From contig PSLF01000005.1 of the NCBI GenBank assembly GCA_040289475.1, forward strand, positions 113,446-153,397: a stretch of DNA of 39,952 bases. Reading direction: 5' to 3'. The notes under the pieces are model-generated. The model saw only the letters and a list, made by a program, of their open reading frames with translations, had not been told where the DNA came from and made no database searches. The position numbers and the translations under genes are program-made. This document shows positions 25,866-32,651 of this stretch, piece by piece. Source of the stretch: Acidimicrobiia bacterium. GTDB lineage: Bacteria > Actinomycetota > Acidimicrobiia > ATN3 > PSLF01. Positions within the stretch are counted from its first letter, which is position 1. Each line of letters begins with the position of its first letter.

Positions 25866-27130
25866 TCACCTGCTGTGGTTTCCAACAACTCTCGGTAAAG
25901 GTCAAAATACCGGCGCGCTGCTTTCGAAGCCGTGAACTCCGCTTCAAATCGCTGTTTTCCTGCCTTACCAAGGCGCTCGCGTAGCTCTTTGGACCTGGTT
26001 AGGCGCTCCATCGCTTTTTGGAGCGCGTCGACATCCCGCGGGGGAACCAGAAGGCCGGTCTCCCCGTCAATTACCTGTTCGGGAATGCCTGATATCGCCG
26101 AAGCAATGACAGGCTTGGAGTTAGCCATGGCTTCGAGGACGACGTTAGGGAAGTCTTCGTACAAAATCGACGGGAGGACCACGATGTCTGACGCGGCGTA
26201 TAGGTTCCAGATGTTCCGTTCGAGTGGAAGTATTCGTGCCCGCCCAGGCGGCGCGATCTCATCTATCAGGCGCTCGAGGTGTTGTTGCTCCGGCCCTATT
26301 CCTACGATGAGAAGCGTGGTTTTGATCTCCGGGTTAGTCATGCAAAGTCTGGAAAAAGCTTCGATTGCGTAGCGATGCCCCTTTCCCTTTTCGAGTGATC
26401 CAACGCAAAGGATCAAAACATGGTCGGGCTCTACGCCGAGGCGTACTCGGGTCTGGGCTGGGGACTCGTCGGCTGCCCTCTCGGCAATGCCGTTCGGAAT
26501 AGCCACCGCCTTGCCGGGAGGTAACCGGAGCACCTCTGCGAGTCTTGATGCGGCGGCTTTGGAAGCCGTAACGAAGCGAGTCACGAATCGAGTGCACAGT
26601 CTCTCTAGTGGAAATTCGTACCAGCGTTGCAACGTGGTATATCCGTGTGCTTGGCTGTTGACGACATAGACGACGCAGTCCACCCCCGCGATGCCTGCTG
26701 CTATAGCGGCAGCTGTGCAGGAGGCCGCGCCTGGAAATCCCCCGTTGTTGATGTGGACGATGTCGGGTCTGAGCTTGGAAAAAAGCTTCGTGAGAACAGC
26801 GACGTCGTAGATTTGGATGAGTTGGCGAATGGGTAGGGTGAACATGATCAGGCGAACTAGTCCTCGTATGGGCTTACCTGACCTCGTGGGAAACTTGGCT
26901 TTTGTCCACTTGGCGAGGCCTTCTGGATCGGGAAGCGCTAGGCCGACACGGTCGATGTCGTATGGCATTCTCTCGGCGAGACCGGAGTTGTACCTCTCAC
27001 TTGCCCGGAAACTCAGCGACGGACGAATTTCTCTGGTGCGAACTGCCTCGCCTACTAGCACTACGAGCATTTGTTCACACCCTGCGAACGCATCGTTGTC
27101 AGTGTGGAAGTGGACCCGGGGTGTTTTCAC
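25862..27130 (-). CDS. GT4-family glycosyltransferase
   Basis: A 422-residue GT-B enzyme. The N-terminal half has RVHFHTDNDAFAGCEQMLVVL (a GT4 acceptor loop) and RPDIVHINNGGFPGA. IPNGIAERAADE leads to the donor domain, LCVGSLEKGKGHRYAIEAFSRL is its first strand, and the E-x7-E motif is LYEDFPNVVLEAM (about 323-335), followed by ISGIPEQVIDGETGLLVPP. GTG 27130 overlaps the stop of the preceding epimerase remnant as GTGA, which supports this start over the TTG at 27202 that would read through the remnant in another frame. The 3' end overlaps the convergent epimerase gene by four bases, leaving no room for a terminator. Specificity is unknown. Confidence 0.87.
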   Translation of the reverse strand: MKTPRVHFHTDNDAFAGCEQMLVVLVGEAVRTREIRPSLSFRASERYNSGLAERMPYDIDRVGLALPDPEGLAKWTKAKFPTRSGKPIRGLVRLIMFTLPIRQLIQIYDVAVLTKLFSKLRPDIVHINNGGFPGAASCTAAAIAAGIAGVDCVVYVVNSQAHGYTTLQRWYEFPLERLCTRFVTRFVTASKAAASRLAEVLRLPPGKAVAIPNGIAERAADESPAQTRVRLGVEPDHVLILCVGSLEKGKGHRYAIEAFSRLCMTNPEIKTTLLIVGIGPEQQHLERLIDEIAPPGRARILPLERNIWNLYAASDIVVLPSILYEDFPNVVLEAMANSKPVIASAISGIPEQVIDGETGLLVPPRDVDALQKAMERLTRSKELRERLGKAGKQRFEAEFTASKAARRYFDLYRELLETTAGD

Positions 27131-27474
27131 GGCTTTACGGACAACCCCGACGCCTCGAAGGTGAGGGCCAGCCCGTCGGCGAGTGAGACACGCGGATAGC
27201 AACCAAGCAACTCTTTGGTCGTCGAGATATCCACGACGTATTCGACGATGTCTCCCTTTGGCATTGACAAATCCCCGATACCCATAAGCTCATGGATTCC
27301 CCGTATCTGCTCGGCGAGCTTTGCCAGTCTCGAGGATGCTAACTTTTTGGCAGTTCCTTCGACTCCCCAACAAACCCATAGTTCCCGTAACCAAGGCATA
27401 ACCGATAGAAGACAATGATGGCCTTTTCGTGTGTTCTTTGAGTTGCCGCGAGAGTGCAGACCGACCGATCCCAC
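27127..27474 (-). pseudogene. Remnant of a sugar epimerase gene (both ends present, middle lost)
   Basis: Between the nitroreductase stop and the GT4 start lies a frame of 115 codons beginning GTG directly after that stop. Its last third is clearly the C-terminus of an extended SDR epimerase: SRLAKLAEQIRGI, then PKGDIVEYVVDISTTKELLG and CYPRVSLADGLALTFE, which aligns without gaps to the end of the epimerase at 33989-34933 (GDVKDSQADIS...). In a different frame of the same strand, AAAAGG (27427-27422) precedes TTG 27415, which starts MSSIGYALVTGTMGLLGS, a perfect TGxxGxxG epimerase N-terminus. I infer a gene with an internal deletion of about 200 codons plus a frameshift. Its TGA still overlaps the GTG of the GT4 gene. 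The 5' part, 27416-27474, is leader sequence. Confidence 0.65.
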
Positions 27475-28089
27475 TTAGATCACCGACACGAAGCTGTCAA
27501 GGTCAAGATCGGGACGAGATCTCGGTATGTAGCACGGATCGGGGCGTCCAATTATCAATAGGGCTTGGGGAATCCACTCTGAAGGAAGTTGGAGAGATTC
27601 CCTCGCTTCTTCGGGGGCGAAGATGGGAGCGGCAATCCAGCATGAGCCATACCCCGCTTCGGCGGCCGCGAGCATAATGTTTTGAATCGCTGCACCCAAG
27701 CTCAGTAGAGCCATCCCCAACTCTGCGTCCTGGCGTCGTCGGTCGGGATAGGTGTCCAGTCCTTGTGTTACCAGGCAAGCCAAGATGAGGGCAGGCGCAT
27801 TCGTTAACTTCTGAATCGACTTGTCGGAAAGAACCGAAGAACGCTTCGGATCTATCCCGTCTCGGCGCATGTCCTCTCTCCATCGTGCGGCCATAGATTC
27901 AGCGAGACGGCGTTTGGCTGCTTCGTCGACTACTACCGCAAACCTCCATGGAATAGTGTGATGTGGCGCCGGGGCGAAGAAGGCGACCTGGAGGATGCTG
28001 ACTAATTCACCGGCGTCTACTGGTTCCTTTGTAAAGCGCCGGATCGAGCGGCGGGAAGCAATTGCATCGCGGATCGATCCCTTTTCCAT
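27475..28089 (-). CDS. Nitroreductase-fold protein matching the C-terminal domain of FbiB
   Basis: A 204-residue FMN-binding protein. RRSIRRF (13-19) is the FMN-phosphate loop, FAPAPHHTIPWRFAVV (38-53) is the block characteristic of the FbiB C-terminal half, and DAELGMALLSLGAAIQNIMLAAAEAGYGSCWIA is the nitroreductase core helix. In mycobacterial FbiB this domain follows the CofE domain in one polypeptide and is tied to reduction of dehydro-F420 and extension of the glutamate tail. Here it is a separate gene nine bases after cofE; 240 plus 204 residues together nearly equal one FbiB. The start is ATG 28089 with a weak ribosome-binding site. A general nitroreductase is possible, but context and motif favour F420 biosynthesis. 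Confidence 0.88.
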   Translation of the reverse strand: MEKGSIRDAIASRRSIRRFTKEPVDAGELVSILQVAFFAPAPHHTIPWRFAVVVDEAAKRRLAESMAARWREDMRRDGIDPKRSSVLSDKSIQKLTNAPALILACLVTQGLDTYPDRRRQDAELGMALLSLGAAIQNIMLAAAEAGYGSCWIAAPIFAPEEARESLQLPSEWIPQALLIIGRPDPCYIPRSRPDLDLDSFVSVI

Positions 28090-28098
28090 CTGCCAGTT

Positions 28099-28821
28099 TT
28101 AGCGAAAAAGATCTTCCGTGTAGGGGCGCAGCAATTCTTTGGCGGCACCGTTCCCGGCGATGCATTCGCCCGCTAACCCTCGAACTATCGCTGCGGGGAT
28201 TCCCGCTGATTTGCCCATCACAAGCTCTGCGGCACAGGCTAGTTCATCTGCTATCGCAATCTCGGTCGCTTCTAGTCGGCGACCGAAGGTATCGAGACTA
28301 CCACGGTAGTCGAGCATCGGTTTCATCCCCGCCACACCGATGGCCACGTTGGTTTGGCCACGTCGCCAGGGTCTACCAAACGTGTCGCTTATCACTACGG
28401 CCACTCGGGCGCCACAACTATCGAAAACTTCCTCTCTGATACGGTGGGCAGAGGCGTCGGGGTTTTTGGGCAGCACGCTGACGTAGCCACGTTCGACATT
28501 AGAGTTGTCGACCCCAGCATTCGCACACACGAAACCGTGGTGAGTTTCCGAGATGATCATGTCGCCTCGCTTGCGTAAGACCCGTCTCGATTGCTCCATG
28601 ATGACTCGGTGGCGGTCGGCCTCGTTTTCGACCCGTACGATCCGTCCCTCAGCTTTCGAGACCGCTTTTTGCGTTACTACCAATATGTCGCCGTTACGGA
28701 GATCACAACCGTTCGCCGAGGATGTAGATGCTATGAGAGTTCCGAGCCGGTCTCCGGGGCGAATCTCTCCAATCCCATTTACTGGGATGATCTCGAGAGA
28801 TGCCGAAGTGTACGTCTGCAA
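28099..28821 (-). CDS. cofE: Coenzyme F420-0:L-glutamate ligase
   Basis: GTP-dependent ligase that adds glutamate residues to F420-0. The 240-residue protein carries the CofE blocks GDILVVTQKAVSKAEGR (44-60), ETHHGFVCANAGVDNSN (92-108, metal and substrate contacts), VLPKNPDASA and VVISDTFGRPWRRGQTNVAIG (142-162). Its length equals archaeal CofE or the N-terminal half of actinobacterial FbiB; the matching C-terminal half is the next gene. The start is TTG 28821, with GGAG ten bases upstream in the four-base gap after cofD (overlapping the cofD end), so the two are almost certainly cotranslated. Confidence 0.95.
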   Translation of the reverse strand: MQTYTSASLEIIPVNGIGEIRPGDRLGTLIASTSSANGCDLRNGDILVVTQKAVSKAEGRIVRVENEADRHRVIMEQSRRVLRKRGDMIISETHHGFVCANAGVDNSNVERGYVSVLPKNPDASAHRIREEVFDSCGARVAVVISDTFGRPWRRGQTNVAIGVAGMKPMLDYRGSLDTFGRRLEATEIAIADELACAAELVMGKSAGIPAAIVRGLAGECIAGNGAAKELLRPYTEDLFR

Positions 28822-28825
28822 CTTT

Positions 28826-29776
28826 TTACATCTCCGCTTCTACTGCCTCGAGCACGGTCTTTGCGAGGGCTTTTGCCTGGGGCACACCTCGCATGAGCGT
28901 CTGGGCCGGTATGGGTTCGACCTCGAGTGCTTCTATGTCGGGGATCGCTTCGCGATCGACGAAGTCTATGACTATCGCGTGGATAAAGTCTCGATATGCG
29001 TCGGCAACACCAATACAGCTCGCCTCGAGGCCGACTGCTTCCATCATTCGGTCAGCCGGGCCTCTAACTGGCTGGCCTTGAATCAAAGGACTGACCGCGA
29101 CGATCTTGTTGGGGAAGTCTCTGAGGGCGTCCCTGATCCCTGGTACTGCCAGTATTGGGCCTATCGAGGCAACGGGATTGGAGGGGCACACGATTATCCC
29201 ACTTGCGTTGCGGATAGCCTCCATAACACCAGGAGCGGGAGTTGCCTGTTGCACCCCGTGGTAATACACACTGATTATCCGGTCCTGGGCCCTCCTTTCG
29301 ACCAAGTACTCCTGAAAATGTAGGTCTAGACGTGGCCCACTACCTGGCTGCTCTACTATTACTCTGGTCGTGACCTCTTGATCGCTCATTGGGATCACCG
29401 TCGAGCGTACCCCCCATGCCCGAGCGATCTCAGCAGTCACCTCGCTCAGGGTAGCCCCCGATCTAATGCGCCACGATCTGTACAGGTGCGTAGCGAGGTC
29501 GACGTCACCCAGGCGGAACCAGGTCGGGCCCGTGTAACGTTTTAGAGCCTCAAGGCACCTGAAAGTGTCCCCTTGAATACCCCATCCACGTTCTGGATCG
29601 TTTGCTCCGGCTAGCCCGTAAATTACCGAATCTAGATCCGGGCTGATATATAGATCGTAAAGACGGATATCATCGGCGGTGTTTACGACAACGGTGAGAT
29701 CCTTTTGGTCTAAGAGCCCGACTAAGCCTCTTAAAAACCGGGCGGCGCCAACGCCGCCTGCGAGTGCAACCAACAT
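28826..29776 (-). CDS. cofD: 2-phospho-L-lactate transferase (FbiA/CofD)
   Basis: Transfers a phospho-lactyl or phosphoenolpyruvyl group onto FO to give (dehydro-)F420-0; actinobacterial FbiA uses the enolpyruvyl donor. The 316 residues hold the family blocks MLVALAGGVGAARFLRGL (1-18), VVNTADDIRLYDLYISPDLDSVIYGLAG (29-56), ERGWGIQGDTF, WFRLGDVDLATHLYR, IVCPSNPVASIGPIL and VSPLIQGQPVRGPADRMM. ATG 29776 has a strong GGGAGGT five bases upstream. It is the first gene of a leftward cofD-cofE-nitroreductase operon divergent from cofG-cofH. The donor-making guanylyltransferase CofC/FbiD is not encoded in the window. Confidence 0.96.
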   Translation of the reverse strand: MLVALAGGVGAARFLRGLVGLLDQKDLTVVVNTADDIRLYDLYISPDLDSVIYGLAGANDPERGWGIQGDTFRCLEALKRYTGPTWFRLGDVDLATHLYRSWRIRSGATLSEVTAEIARAWGVRSTVIPMSDQEVTTRVIVEQPGSGPRLDLHFQEYLVERRAQDRIISVYYHGVQQATPAPGVMEAIRNASGIIVCPSNPVASIGPILAVPGIRDALRDFPNKIVAVSPLIQGQPVRGPADRMMEAVGLEASCIGVADAYRDFIHAIVIDFVDREAIPDIEALEVEPIPAQTLMRGVPQAKALAKTVLEAVEAEM

Positions 29777-29824: not shown

Positions 29825-31324
29825 ATGCCACTCAGGACGCAAGAGATCATAGCCACAGCAGTCGAAGCCAGAGACACCCTTGCAGGCTCGGATGTTTTAA
29901 AGATTCCGTTTATCGAGCAAAATACTGACTCGTCGGTACTTTTAGATGTCGAAGGCAAGTTCGACCGCGGAGGGGGCTCGGATCTCGCAGGTACCTACAG
30001 CGGCGCGATCGCAGAATGGTACGTCGACGAGCTTTTCGAACTCAGGCGTACAACGGCCGCATCGCTCGCACGCCTGCTCGACCCTTCTGTAGCGGCAGAT
30101 GAACTACTCGAGGCTGCCTGTTCCGTTCGTGACCGACAGTGGGGTGGGGTAGTCTCTTTTTCTCCAAAAGTCTTCATCGACCTCACCAGGCTTTGTCGTG
30201 ACAGGTGTGCCTACTGCACCTTTATTCGTGACCCTCTCTCCCCAATGCCCTCGTCACCGCGAAACGAGGATTCTCCTCTAGCATCGGAACTGCCGGTTAG
30301 GGACAGGTGGGAGAGACCCGAACCATATCTCCTGCACGAAGAGGTTTTGGCTATTGCCACGGTAGGGCGCAAAGCCGGTTGCACCGAGGCGCTCTTTACT
30401 CTGGGGGACCGTCCCGAAGAAAAGTACCCGGCCGCTCGAAAATTCCTTCAGCGAATGGGTTACGACAGCACTGCTCACTATCTATACGACTGCGCCAGGC
30501 TGGTAATCGAAGAAACGGGACTCCTTCCTCACATCAACCCTGGAGTCATGACCAGATTGGATCTGCGTTCTTACAAGGAAGTGGCGGCTTCGTGTGGAAT
30601 GATGCTGGAGTCTACGAGTTATGCTTTGTTCGCCGACCCCCGTGGCTGTCATTTTGAATGCCCCGACAAATACCCGCCGGTGAGGGTTGCCACCATTCAG
30701 GCAGCAGAAGTCGAGAAGGTGCCATTTACTACTGGGATACTCATCGGTATAGGGGAGAGCTTACAGGCGCGGGCTGACACTCTTTTGGTCCTGGCTTCGC
30801 TTGCTGTATCGGGGTTGCATATCCAAGAAGTGATCGTTCAAAACTTTAGGGCAAAGCCTTCCATCCCGATGAGCACATGCCCAGAGCCCACAGATCAGGA
30901 GCTAGCACGCACAGTAGCCTTAGCGAGACTACTCCTTCCGCCATCCGTGGCCGTTCAGGCACCACCCAACCTCTCGCCCGGCAATTACGCATCGCTACTA
31001 GGCGCAGGGGTATGTGACTGGGGAGGAATCTCACCTGTCACCCTCGATCACGTCAACCCCGAGGCAGCTTGGCCCGAGATCAGTGCTGTGAAGAGGGCAA
31101 CGGAGGAAAGGGGATTCGAGTTGAGAGCGAGGCTGTGTGTGTATCCTTCATTCGTTCGCTCCAATGGGTGGATCTCTGAGCGAGTAAAACCTTACGTCGA
31201 CGCTTTGGCCGACTCGGAAGGGTGGGCCTCGGTCTTTGGGCCGCTCGCTGCCGAGCTGGGCTGTGCACCGATTGTCGCCGTGCGCGACGCTTCTATTGAT
31301 CGTATGAGTGACCGAAGGGAATGA
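29825..31324 (+). CDS. cofG: FO synthase subunit 1 (radical SAM, CofG)
   Basis: With CofH, makes the deazaflavin FO from tyrosine and a ribityl-uracil intermediate. The radical-SAM cluster motif is CRDRCAYC (Cys124, 128, 131) within FSPKVFIDLTRLCRDRCAYCTF. Further family blocks are ALFTLGDRPEEKYP, GLLPHINPGVM, MMLESTSYALF, VPFTTGILIGIGE and VQAPPNLSPGNY. At 499 residues it is longer than archaeal CofG (roughly 320-390), mainly from a ~100-residue N-terminal extension. ATG 29825 follows GAGGA at five bases. The 3' end overlaps cofH in another frame. Actinobacteria usually carry CofG and CofH fused as FbiC; here they are separate. Confidence 0.95.
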   Translation: MPLRTQEIIATAVEARDTLAGSDVLKIPFIEQNTDSSVLLDVEGKFDRGGGSDLAGTYSGAIAEWYVDELFELRRTTAASLARLLDPSVAADELLEAACSVRDRQWGGVVSFSPKVFIDLTRLCRDRCAYCTFIRDPLSPMPSSPRNEDSPLASELPVRDRWERPEPYLLHEEVLAIATVGRKAGCTEALFTLGDRPEEKYPAARKFLQRMGYDSTAHYLYDCARLVIEETGLLPHINPGVMTRLDLRSYKEVAASCGMMLESTSYALFADPRGCHFECPDKYPPVRVATIQAAEVEKVPFTTGILIGIGESLQARADTLLVLASLAVSGLHIQEVIVQNFRAKPSIPMSTCPEPTDQELARTVALARLLLPPSVAVQAPPNLSPGNYASLLGAGVCDWGGISPVTLDHVNPEAAWPEISAVKRATEERGFELRARLCVYPSFVRSNGWISERVKPYVDALADSEGWASVFGPLAAELGCAPIVAVRDASIDRMSDRRE

Positions 31325-32651
31325 TCACTTGAACAAAAAGTCTCTGAGACTCGTCACAGAGCCAGGCGCACTCCCGCTAGTAGAAAGGGTCGCTGGCAGA
31401 TCTGGCTCTACGCTGGGTGCCTTGGCGATCGCTAAACGCTCGGGGGCTGTGCCACTTACTCGCCCTCAGGAGCCTACGCCGGGTCCTCGTTTCGACGGCA
31501 GTACTCCCGCCGACGAGCTTGAATCGAGGCTCAGCTTGGCTTCAGATAGCGTGCGGGCAGTTCTAGAGAAGTCCCTCGAGGAGAGAGTCTTAGACCGCGA
31601 CGACCTTTTGCTCTTGATGAATGTGAGAGGTCACGACTTTGATGCGCTCGTGGCGACTGCGGATTGGTGGCGACGGAAGACAGTGGGAAATGTGGTCACC
31701 TACGTCGTCAACCGAAACATCAACTTCACCAACGTTTGTACCATCGGGTGTGGGTTTTGTGCTTTCTCCACAGGTCTTGCCATGGAAGACGCTTACTTTC
31801 TCAGCTTTGATCAAGTCGTCGAGAAGGCTAAAGAATGCTGGGAGCGAGGGGGAACCGAGGTGTGCATCCAGGGGGGGATACATCCCACTATGGACTGGAC
31901 CTACTACCCCGGGCTTTTAAAGGCAATAAAAAAAGAGCTTCCACTTATTCACACGCACGCATTCAGTCCCATGGAGATTATCTGGGGATCTAAGAGCGCG
32001 GGTATACCGGTCGACGAGTACCTCGTGTTGTTGAAGGAGGCTGGCTTGGACACCATCCCAGGAACAGCTGCCGAGATCCTGGACGACTCGGTTCGCCAGA
32101 TCTTGTCGCCGAAGAAGGAATCAGTCGCCGAGTGGGTCGAAGTTGTGACGACGGCGCACTCGCTGGGCATCCGCTCTACTGCTACGATCATGTTCGGCCA
32201 CGTCGAGACCGTAGAGCACCGAGTTGAACATCTGCTGTTGATAAGGCAAATCCAGAAAGAAACCGGCGGATTTACAGAGTTTGTCCCGCTTCCATTCATC
32301 CACGAGTTTTCTCCAATGTACCTTCAGGGAAAGTGCGGCCCAGGACCCACCCGCCTCGACTCGGTGCGACTACATGCCGTGGTCCGCTTAGCTTTGAGGG
32401 GCTACATAAACAACATTCAAGCAAGTTGGGTAAAGCTGGGTGTGGACGGTGTCCAAGAGTGTCTACAAGCGGGATGCAACGACTTCGGTGGCACCCTGAT
32501 GGAGGAGTCCATATCTCGGCTGGCGGGAGCTAGGAACGGGCAGGAGCTTTGGGTAGACGAGATTGCTGCTGCCATTAGGGCCATAGGTAGAATCCCGAAG
32601 CAACGAAGCACCACCTACGGGGATCCTCCCCGAGATCCACTTCCTGTCTGA
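31308..32651 (+). CDS. cofH: FO synthase subunit 2 (radical SAM, CofH)
   Basis: Joins tyrosine-derived hydroxybenzyl to 5-amino-6-ribitylaminouracil, the CofG substrate. The cluster motif is CTIGCGFC (Cys144, 148, 151) in NRNINFTNVCTIGCGFCAF. Other CofH blocks are EVCIQGGIHPTMDWTYY, IHTHAFSPMEI, GLDTIPGTAAEIL, ATIMFGHVE and NDFGGTLMEE. The 447 residues include ~75 extra N-terminal residues. GTG 31308 overlaps cofG by 17 bases and lacks a ribosome-binding site. TTG 31329, five bases past the cofG stop with GAAGGGA upstream, is probably the real start and would trim seven residues. The gene ends 27 bases before the convergent GT4 gene. Confidence 0.95.
   Translation: MTEGNDHLNKKSLRLVTEPGALPLVERVAGRSGSTLGALAIAKRSGAVPLTRPQEPTPGPRFDGSTPADELESRLSLASDSVRAVLEKSLEERVLDRDDLLLLMNVRGHDFDALVATADWWRRKTVGNVVTYVVNRNINFTNVCTIGCGFCAFSTGLAMEDAYFLSFDQVVEKAKECWERGGTEVCIQGGIHPTMDWTYYPGLLKAIKKELPLIHTHAFSPMEIIWGSKSAGIPVDEYLVLLKEAGLDTIPGTAAEILDDSVRQILSPKKESVAEWVEVVTTAHSLGIRSTATIMFGHVETVEHRVEHLLLIRQIQKETGGFTEFVPLPFIHEFSPMYLQGKCGPGPTRLDSVRLHAVVRLALRGYINNIQASWVKLGVDGVQECLQAGCNDFGGTLMEESISRLAGARNGQELWVDEIAAAIRAIGRIPKQRSTTYGDPPRDPLPV

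Follow-up and report, generated by a model that had tools for sequence, protein, structure and literature searches.

Does a cofE gene that lies beside the gene for an FbiB-type nitroreductase preserve the state from which the fused F420 biosynthesis protein FbiB arose, or is it an FbiB gene that was later broken in two? The question is raised by a gene pair in the window, by which we mean the whole 39,952-nucleotide stretch of an Acidimicrobiia genome that was analysed here. The initial annotation had described a cofE of 240 residues and a nitroreductase of 204 residues, nine bases apart and arranged as the two domains are in FbiB, and had left the choice between an ancestral unfused state and a secondary split open. 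The open reading frames confirm this description, as does the APAPHHT-PWRF block found in the nitroreductase sequence, and the two lengths sum, as had been pointed out, to about one FbiB (444 residues against the 449 positions of the full-length FbiB model NF009810). We conclude, with a probability of roughly 0.86, that the pair represents FbiB in an unfused, ancestor-like state, within a cofD-cofE-fbiE operon of an acidimicrobial actinobacterium.

The pair lies directly 3' of cofD, the first gene of the run, whose stop is four bases from the cofE start (Table 1). Read on the minus strand, the junction between cofE and fbiE is TAA-AAC-TGG-CAG-ATG, so that both genes share one reading frame with a single TAA in between. 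In a whole-genome scan NF009810 accordingly matches the window across positions 6 to 443 with one TAA within the match, and owing to this TAA the window has no uninterrupted open reading frame that holds both FbiB domains. Inspection by eye found no good ribosome-binding site upstream of the fbiE ATG, and fbiE is therefore likely to be translated by re-initiation after cofE, a coupling that we infer from the junction.

Table 1. Features of the F420 gene cluster in the window
Feature	Coordinates	Strand	Basis and remarks
fbiE, free nitroreductase FbiE	27475..28089	-	204 aa, ATG start
Nine-base spacer	28090..28098	-	Sequence; lies between cofE and fbiE
cofE, F420-0:gamma-glutamyl ligase, single domain	28099..28821	-	240 aa, TTG start; TIGR01916, PDB, CofE tree
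cofD/fbiA, 2-phospho-L-lactate (or PEP-derived) transferase	28826..29776	-	TIGR01819 333.8 bits, over cut-off
cofG, FO synthase subunit	29825..31324	+	TIGR03550 400.3 bits; separate gene, divergent from cofD
cofH, FO synthase subunit	31308..32651	+	TIGR03551 489.2 bits; separate gene

The ligase is readily identified: its TIGR01916 score of 262.8 bits exceeds the curated cut-off of 180.65, and its best PDB matches are 7uld, 2phn and 2g9i (E about 4e-44). The best NCBIfam models of the nitroreductase are those of whole FbiB (172.8 bits), of which it covers the C-terminal half (positions 254-444 of 449 in NF009810), and of the FbiB C-terminal domain, TIGR03553 (171.7 bits, E 1.4e-50). Both scores are below the curated cut-offs, and that of TIGR03553 (249.55) was reached in 0 of the 40 genomes searched. 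By sequence, the best PDB match is the C-terminal domain of M. tuberculosis FbiB, 4xom, at 1.2e-34, the next match being at 2.1e-18. The AlphaFold model of the protein (pLDDT 92.0, pTM 0.87) is closest in fold to the same domain: the top 11 PDB structure matches are FbiB C-domain chains with E of 3.4e-19 to 2.6e-17, ahead of the next at 6.9e-15, and the best of them (4xoq, 4xom and 4xoo) have TMq values of 0.80-0.87.

In a docking model reported for M. tuberculosis FbiB, P289 and M372 form the methylene pocket and R337 contacts the carboxylate (PMC6450877). Two of these three modelled pocket residues are conserved in the window FbiE, as P42 and M126. The R337 position is occupied by K in the window, by A in 24 of 35 class rows and by G in FbiE of Thermomicrobium roseum, and because of this last case R337 is no reliable mark of dehydro-F420 reduction.

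Could the nitroreductase nevertheless be an unrelated member of its family that merely adjoins cofE? These genomes hold many nitroreductases, the TIGR03553 score is below its cut-off, and Betaproteobacteria plasmids bear FbiE-like nitroreductases that lack an annotated F420 gene within 5 kb. Against this, the nitroreductase trees group the protein with FbiB C-terminal domains and not with other nitroreductases, placing it inside a 100/99 clade of 50 rows that comprises fused domains, Acidimicrobiia, family f25 and four Chloroflexota rows. Its identity is 45-55% to class relatives and 33-43% to fused domains, compared with 23-30% to other nitroreductases, and in the structural comparison 11 FbiB C-domain chains stand ahead of any other. 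A grouping with unrelated nitroreductases, which the initial annotation had named as the outcome that would overturn its proposal, is thus not what the trees give, and we consider a chance neighbour extremely improbable. The orthology instead points to a stand-alone dehydro-F420 reductase, FbiE, a kind known from T. roseum, and we predict this activity for the window protein from its sequence and structural model.

The surrounding genes are those of an F420 pathway. The cofH gene overlaps cofG by 17 bases, and CofG and CofH together are equivalent to FbiC; a CofC/FbiD gene is located in another part of the genome, at G000:C20:820-1413, with a Pfam score of 80.8 bits that exceeds the cut-off. 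With CofG, CofH and CofD in the window and CofC in the genome, there is a candidate gene for each known step to F420. Luciferase-like places number 15 in 1.97 Mb of the window genome, of which 14 exceed the Pfam cut-off, one of these only when its neighbours are counted with it, a number that fits an F420 user, in a family that includes FMN enzymes and matches 10 of 14 control genomes. One luciferase-like oxidoreductase place adjoins cofC (L331, G000:C20:30-1413). FbiC, at 29825-32651, is also split in the window, into cofG and cofH; it is split in a same-order genome (G001) too and fused in 14 of 21 other class loci examined. Fused and split FbiC separate on one branch of a tree of 22 class rows, which is unrooted and gives no direction of change. 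Immediately past fbiE, at 27127-27474, is a 115-aa open reading frame without a Pfam match, the end of which resembles by eye the C-terminus of a nucleotide-sugar epimerase and which is perhaps a gene remnant.

The split arrangement is the rule in the class. Relatives were gathered with a 12-row alignment as query, the best 80 of at least 559 being used. FbiE was found at E <= 1e-25 in 48 of 395 genomes of class Acidimicrobiia, and in 46 of these cofE directly precedes fbiE on the same strand as a separate open reading frame; a fusion was found in 0 of 48. One of the remaining two genomes (G031) has cofE on another contig, which brings the unfused state to 47 of 48, and the other has its locus at a contig end, where the arrangement is not judgeable. 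In G031 fbiE directly follows cofD (L249). Of the 46 pairs, 39 have a potential fbiE start codon that overlaps the stop codon of cofE, by four bases in 38 and as TGATG in one. The window is the odd one of its class, with an in-frame pair, TAA in place of TGA and no overlap, and among the 46 pairs a single frame is shared by the window and L179 only (L067 is the same contig place as L179). Open-frame lengths had suggested fusions in some class genomes, such as G027 (461 aa) and G015 (457 aa); their loci show separate genes in different frames, the apparent fusions being due to long spurious frames in G+C-rich DNA.

Beyond the class, an uninterrupted open reading frame across both domains was found in 42 of the 296 genomes of a phylum sample (counted from result rows), none of them from the window's class. 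In another actinobacterial family, f25, all three loci examined (L215-217) carry split genes that touch. Seven loci were examined in family f35: in six, 7-14 kb separate FbiE from cofE, and the seventh stretch is without cofE. In a Chloroflexota sample of 151 genomes, adjacent-split and unlinked pairs both occur, and fused FbiB was not found in the 49 loci examined (L255-283, L287-306).

Trees were built for each protein, with fused and split labels taken from gene structure and with rows omitted where the nitroreductase domain was under 165 aa or the CofE domain under 200 aa. The quick nitroreductase tree has 117 rows (thinned from 256); the careful one, from which eight long or doubtful rows were omitted and in which class and fused rows were thinned further, has 81. 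The CofE tree has 95 rows, near-identical rows having been thinned from 244 to 94. Because the single-gene approximately unbiased (AU) tests described below were not strong enough, a concatenated CofE and nitroreductase alignment was built; its tree has 45 rows (thinned from 211), L226, L301 and L247 having been removed beforehand, and it omits loci with cofE and fbiE on different contigs, including four Chloroflexota rows that branch close to fused FbiB. Fused FbiB is monophyletic in all trees (nitroreductase alone 100/99, CofE alone 97/83, concatenated 100/98). The window groups with Acidimicrobiia in every tree, with support of 96 and 99/96 in the quick and careful nitroreductase trees, 94/81 in the CofE tree and 95/91 in the concatenated tree. 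The f25 split pair is the sister of fused FbiB in the nitroreductase and concatenated trees (99/94 in the latter), and in the concatenated tree the window and other Acidimicrobiia come next; the Chloroflexota and f35 rows in the sample lie outside these. With CofE alone, f25 groups with Acidimicrobiia (91/64), a placement beside fused FbiB not being rejected (p 0.413).

This topology bears directly on whether a fused FbiB ancestor was broken by a nonsense change to TAA, with translation re-initiating at the ATG nine bases on. The junction itself invites such an account: cofE and fbiE lie in a common frame that only one TAA interrupts, and readthrough would leave 16 codons, the stop included, between the CofE end and the RRSIR motif, where fused linkers have 9-18. 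TAA is one change from TAC or TAT, and Y follows CofE in 5 of 60 distinct fused linkers. The single-gene AU tests also allow the window to join the fused proteins, since this placement was not rejected with CofE alone (p 0.432) and was borderline with the nitroreductase alone (0.044, or 0.097 if the same-order row L012 moves along). Single genes have much less power in these tests than the concatenated data, with which the following placements were rejected: the window inside the Actinomycetes-type fused FbiB (4.8e-6) or inside the f31 fused FbiB (7.8e-8), two subclades picked after the tree was seen, the window and all fused proteins as a clade (0.0023), and the window and Acidimicrobiia with the Actinomycetes-type fused rows (7.9e-4). 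The comparison of relatives argues in the same direction, given that all 46 class pairs that are adjacent are split, that the same-order row L012 has a four-base ATGA overlap in a different frame, that a same-frame split pair recurs in another class genome, and that a Met at any position occurs in only 3 of 60 distinct fused linkers. A secondary split is thus unlikely, and of the two histories that the initial annotation had offered, the concatenated tree and the AU tests favour the ancestral one.

The same single stop might also be a wrong base in a gene that is really fused, the more so as the species is represented here by one assembly. Such a fused FbiB would be unique among the 46 class genomes with an adjacent pair, and the ATG lies near the start sites of the split relatives; we judge a sequencing or assembly error very unlikely. 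For programmed readthrough of the TAA, which would yield a full FbiB, there is nothing in support.

As unfused states surround a single fused clade, a single fusion without any fission is the most parsimonious account. Among the lineages sampled, which do not include the fused protein of Lokiarchaeota, the fusion occurred once, on the branch from which the FbiB proteins of Streptomyces, Actinomadura, Actinophytocola and a number of further actinobacterial families descend. The cofE-fbiE order, in which the genes overlap or all but touch, most likely predated it. That adjacency was continuous is made less certain by the unlinked Chloroflexota rows near the fused clade: in the careful nitroreductase tree L081, L082, L084 and L104, three of which have Dehalococcoidia in their titles, occupy a position between Acidimicrobiia and fused FbiB (98/82), and in none of the four is fbiE beside cofE. 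The quick tree leaves the order of these rows, Acidimicrobiia and the fused clade open. The nitroreductases of the Betaproteobacteria plasmids (L285, L286) are placed among Chloroflexota rows in these trees.

The two genes may also be separable in their inheritance. In the phylum sample, 34 class genomes have a CofE match, and FbiE at E <= 1e-25 was found in only the window genome (G000) and G004, which leaves 32 of the 34 cofE-bearing genomes without FbiE at this threshold in this one sample. The cofE of families f13 (L253, L254) and f11 (L250, a long branch) nests among fbiE-linked cofE in the CofE tree, and no nitroreductase-like open reading frame was found in the stretches L250-L254. An open reading frame that appears by eye to be nucleotide-sugar epimerase-like follows cofE in L253 and, less clearly, in L250; one of this kind follows fbiE in L004, L006 and L012. 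Comparison of these loci suggests that FbiE was likely lost in place in L250, L253 and L254. The cofE of family f4 (L251, L252; of the two, only L251 is in the tree) is of another, Chloroflexota-like kind. It is possible, and we offer it as a tentative view, that FbiE in Acidimicrobiia is a separable part that was lost in place in f13 and f11, whose cofD-cofE genes remain next to a nucleotide-sugar gene like those of relatives with fbiE, the window keeping a state ancestral both to this loss and to the FbiB fusion. If the FbiE-less f13 and f11 make F420, they must either have a dehydro-F420 reductase that is not yet recognised or use another three-carbon unit, and FbiE-less cofE lineages are places to look for the missing reductase.

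For the window pair we propose that one message gives two proteins. FbiE, a free FMN protein that by analogy with FbiB would be dimeric, may pass a hydride from FMNH2, for which a source must be presumed, to the enolpyruvyl group of dehydro-F420-0, and CofE would add the glutamate tail as a separate GTP-dependent ligase. The nitroreductase domain is reported to be essential for tail extension in M. tuberculosis (PMC6450877); if the window CofE works alone, the tail is predicted to be extended without a fused partner, as it is by archaeal CofE. The separation of glutamate ligation from the FMN-dependent step that the initial annotation had proposed holds for gene structure, and the two proteins could still form a complex.

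A published review describes cofE and fbiE as fused "in Actinobacteria", and its main text has no mention of Acidimicrobi, Rubrobacter or Thermoleophil; nor did the literature searched, by titles and with most subscription journals outside its coverage, contain a title on split cofE/fbiE in Acidimicrobiia. Our results refine that statement: the FbiB fusion is not shared by all Actinobacteria. It arose a single time in those that were sampled, most likely from an adjacent two-gene stage of the kind that Acidimicrobiia and one other family still have. Naturally separate CofE and FbiE proteins also offer a way to find out if it matters that ligation and reduction are physically joined.

Three known systems frame this arrangement. 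The single-domain ligase of Archaeoglobus fulgidus (PDB 2PHN) resembles the window CofE in architecture, but in the CofE tree the latter is far nearer to FbiB N-terminal domains than to archaeal CofE; archaeal cofE is reported to lack an adjoining FbiB-type nitroreductase, except for the fused protein of Lokiarchaeum (PMC6450877). The stand-alone FbiE of T. roseum, reported to reduce dehydro-F420 (PMC8498797, citing Braga et al. 2020; PMC8764529), is like the window protein an FbiB C-domain homologue that keeps P289 and M372. Its gene lies behind cofD-cofC and a transporter gene, and the 16 kb examined there contain no cofE, whereas the window fbiE adjoins cofE. In the nitroreductase trees the T. 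roseum protein groups with other Chloroflexota and f35, at a greater distance from fused FbiB than the window protein. M. tuberculosis FbiB, a CofE-nitroreductase fusion with C-domain structures 4XOM, 4XOO and 4XOQ, has homologous domains in the same order and shares P289 and M372 with the window, which differs from it in having two proteins, K in place of R337 and a position in a clade outside the fused clade.
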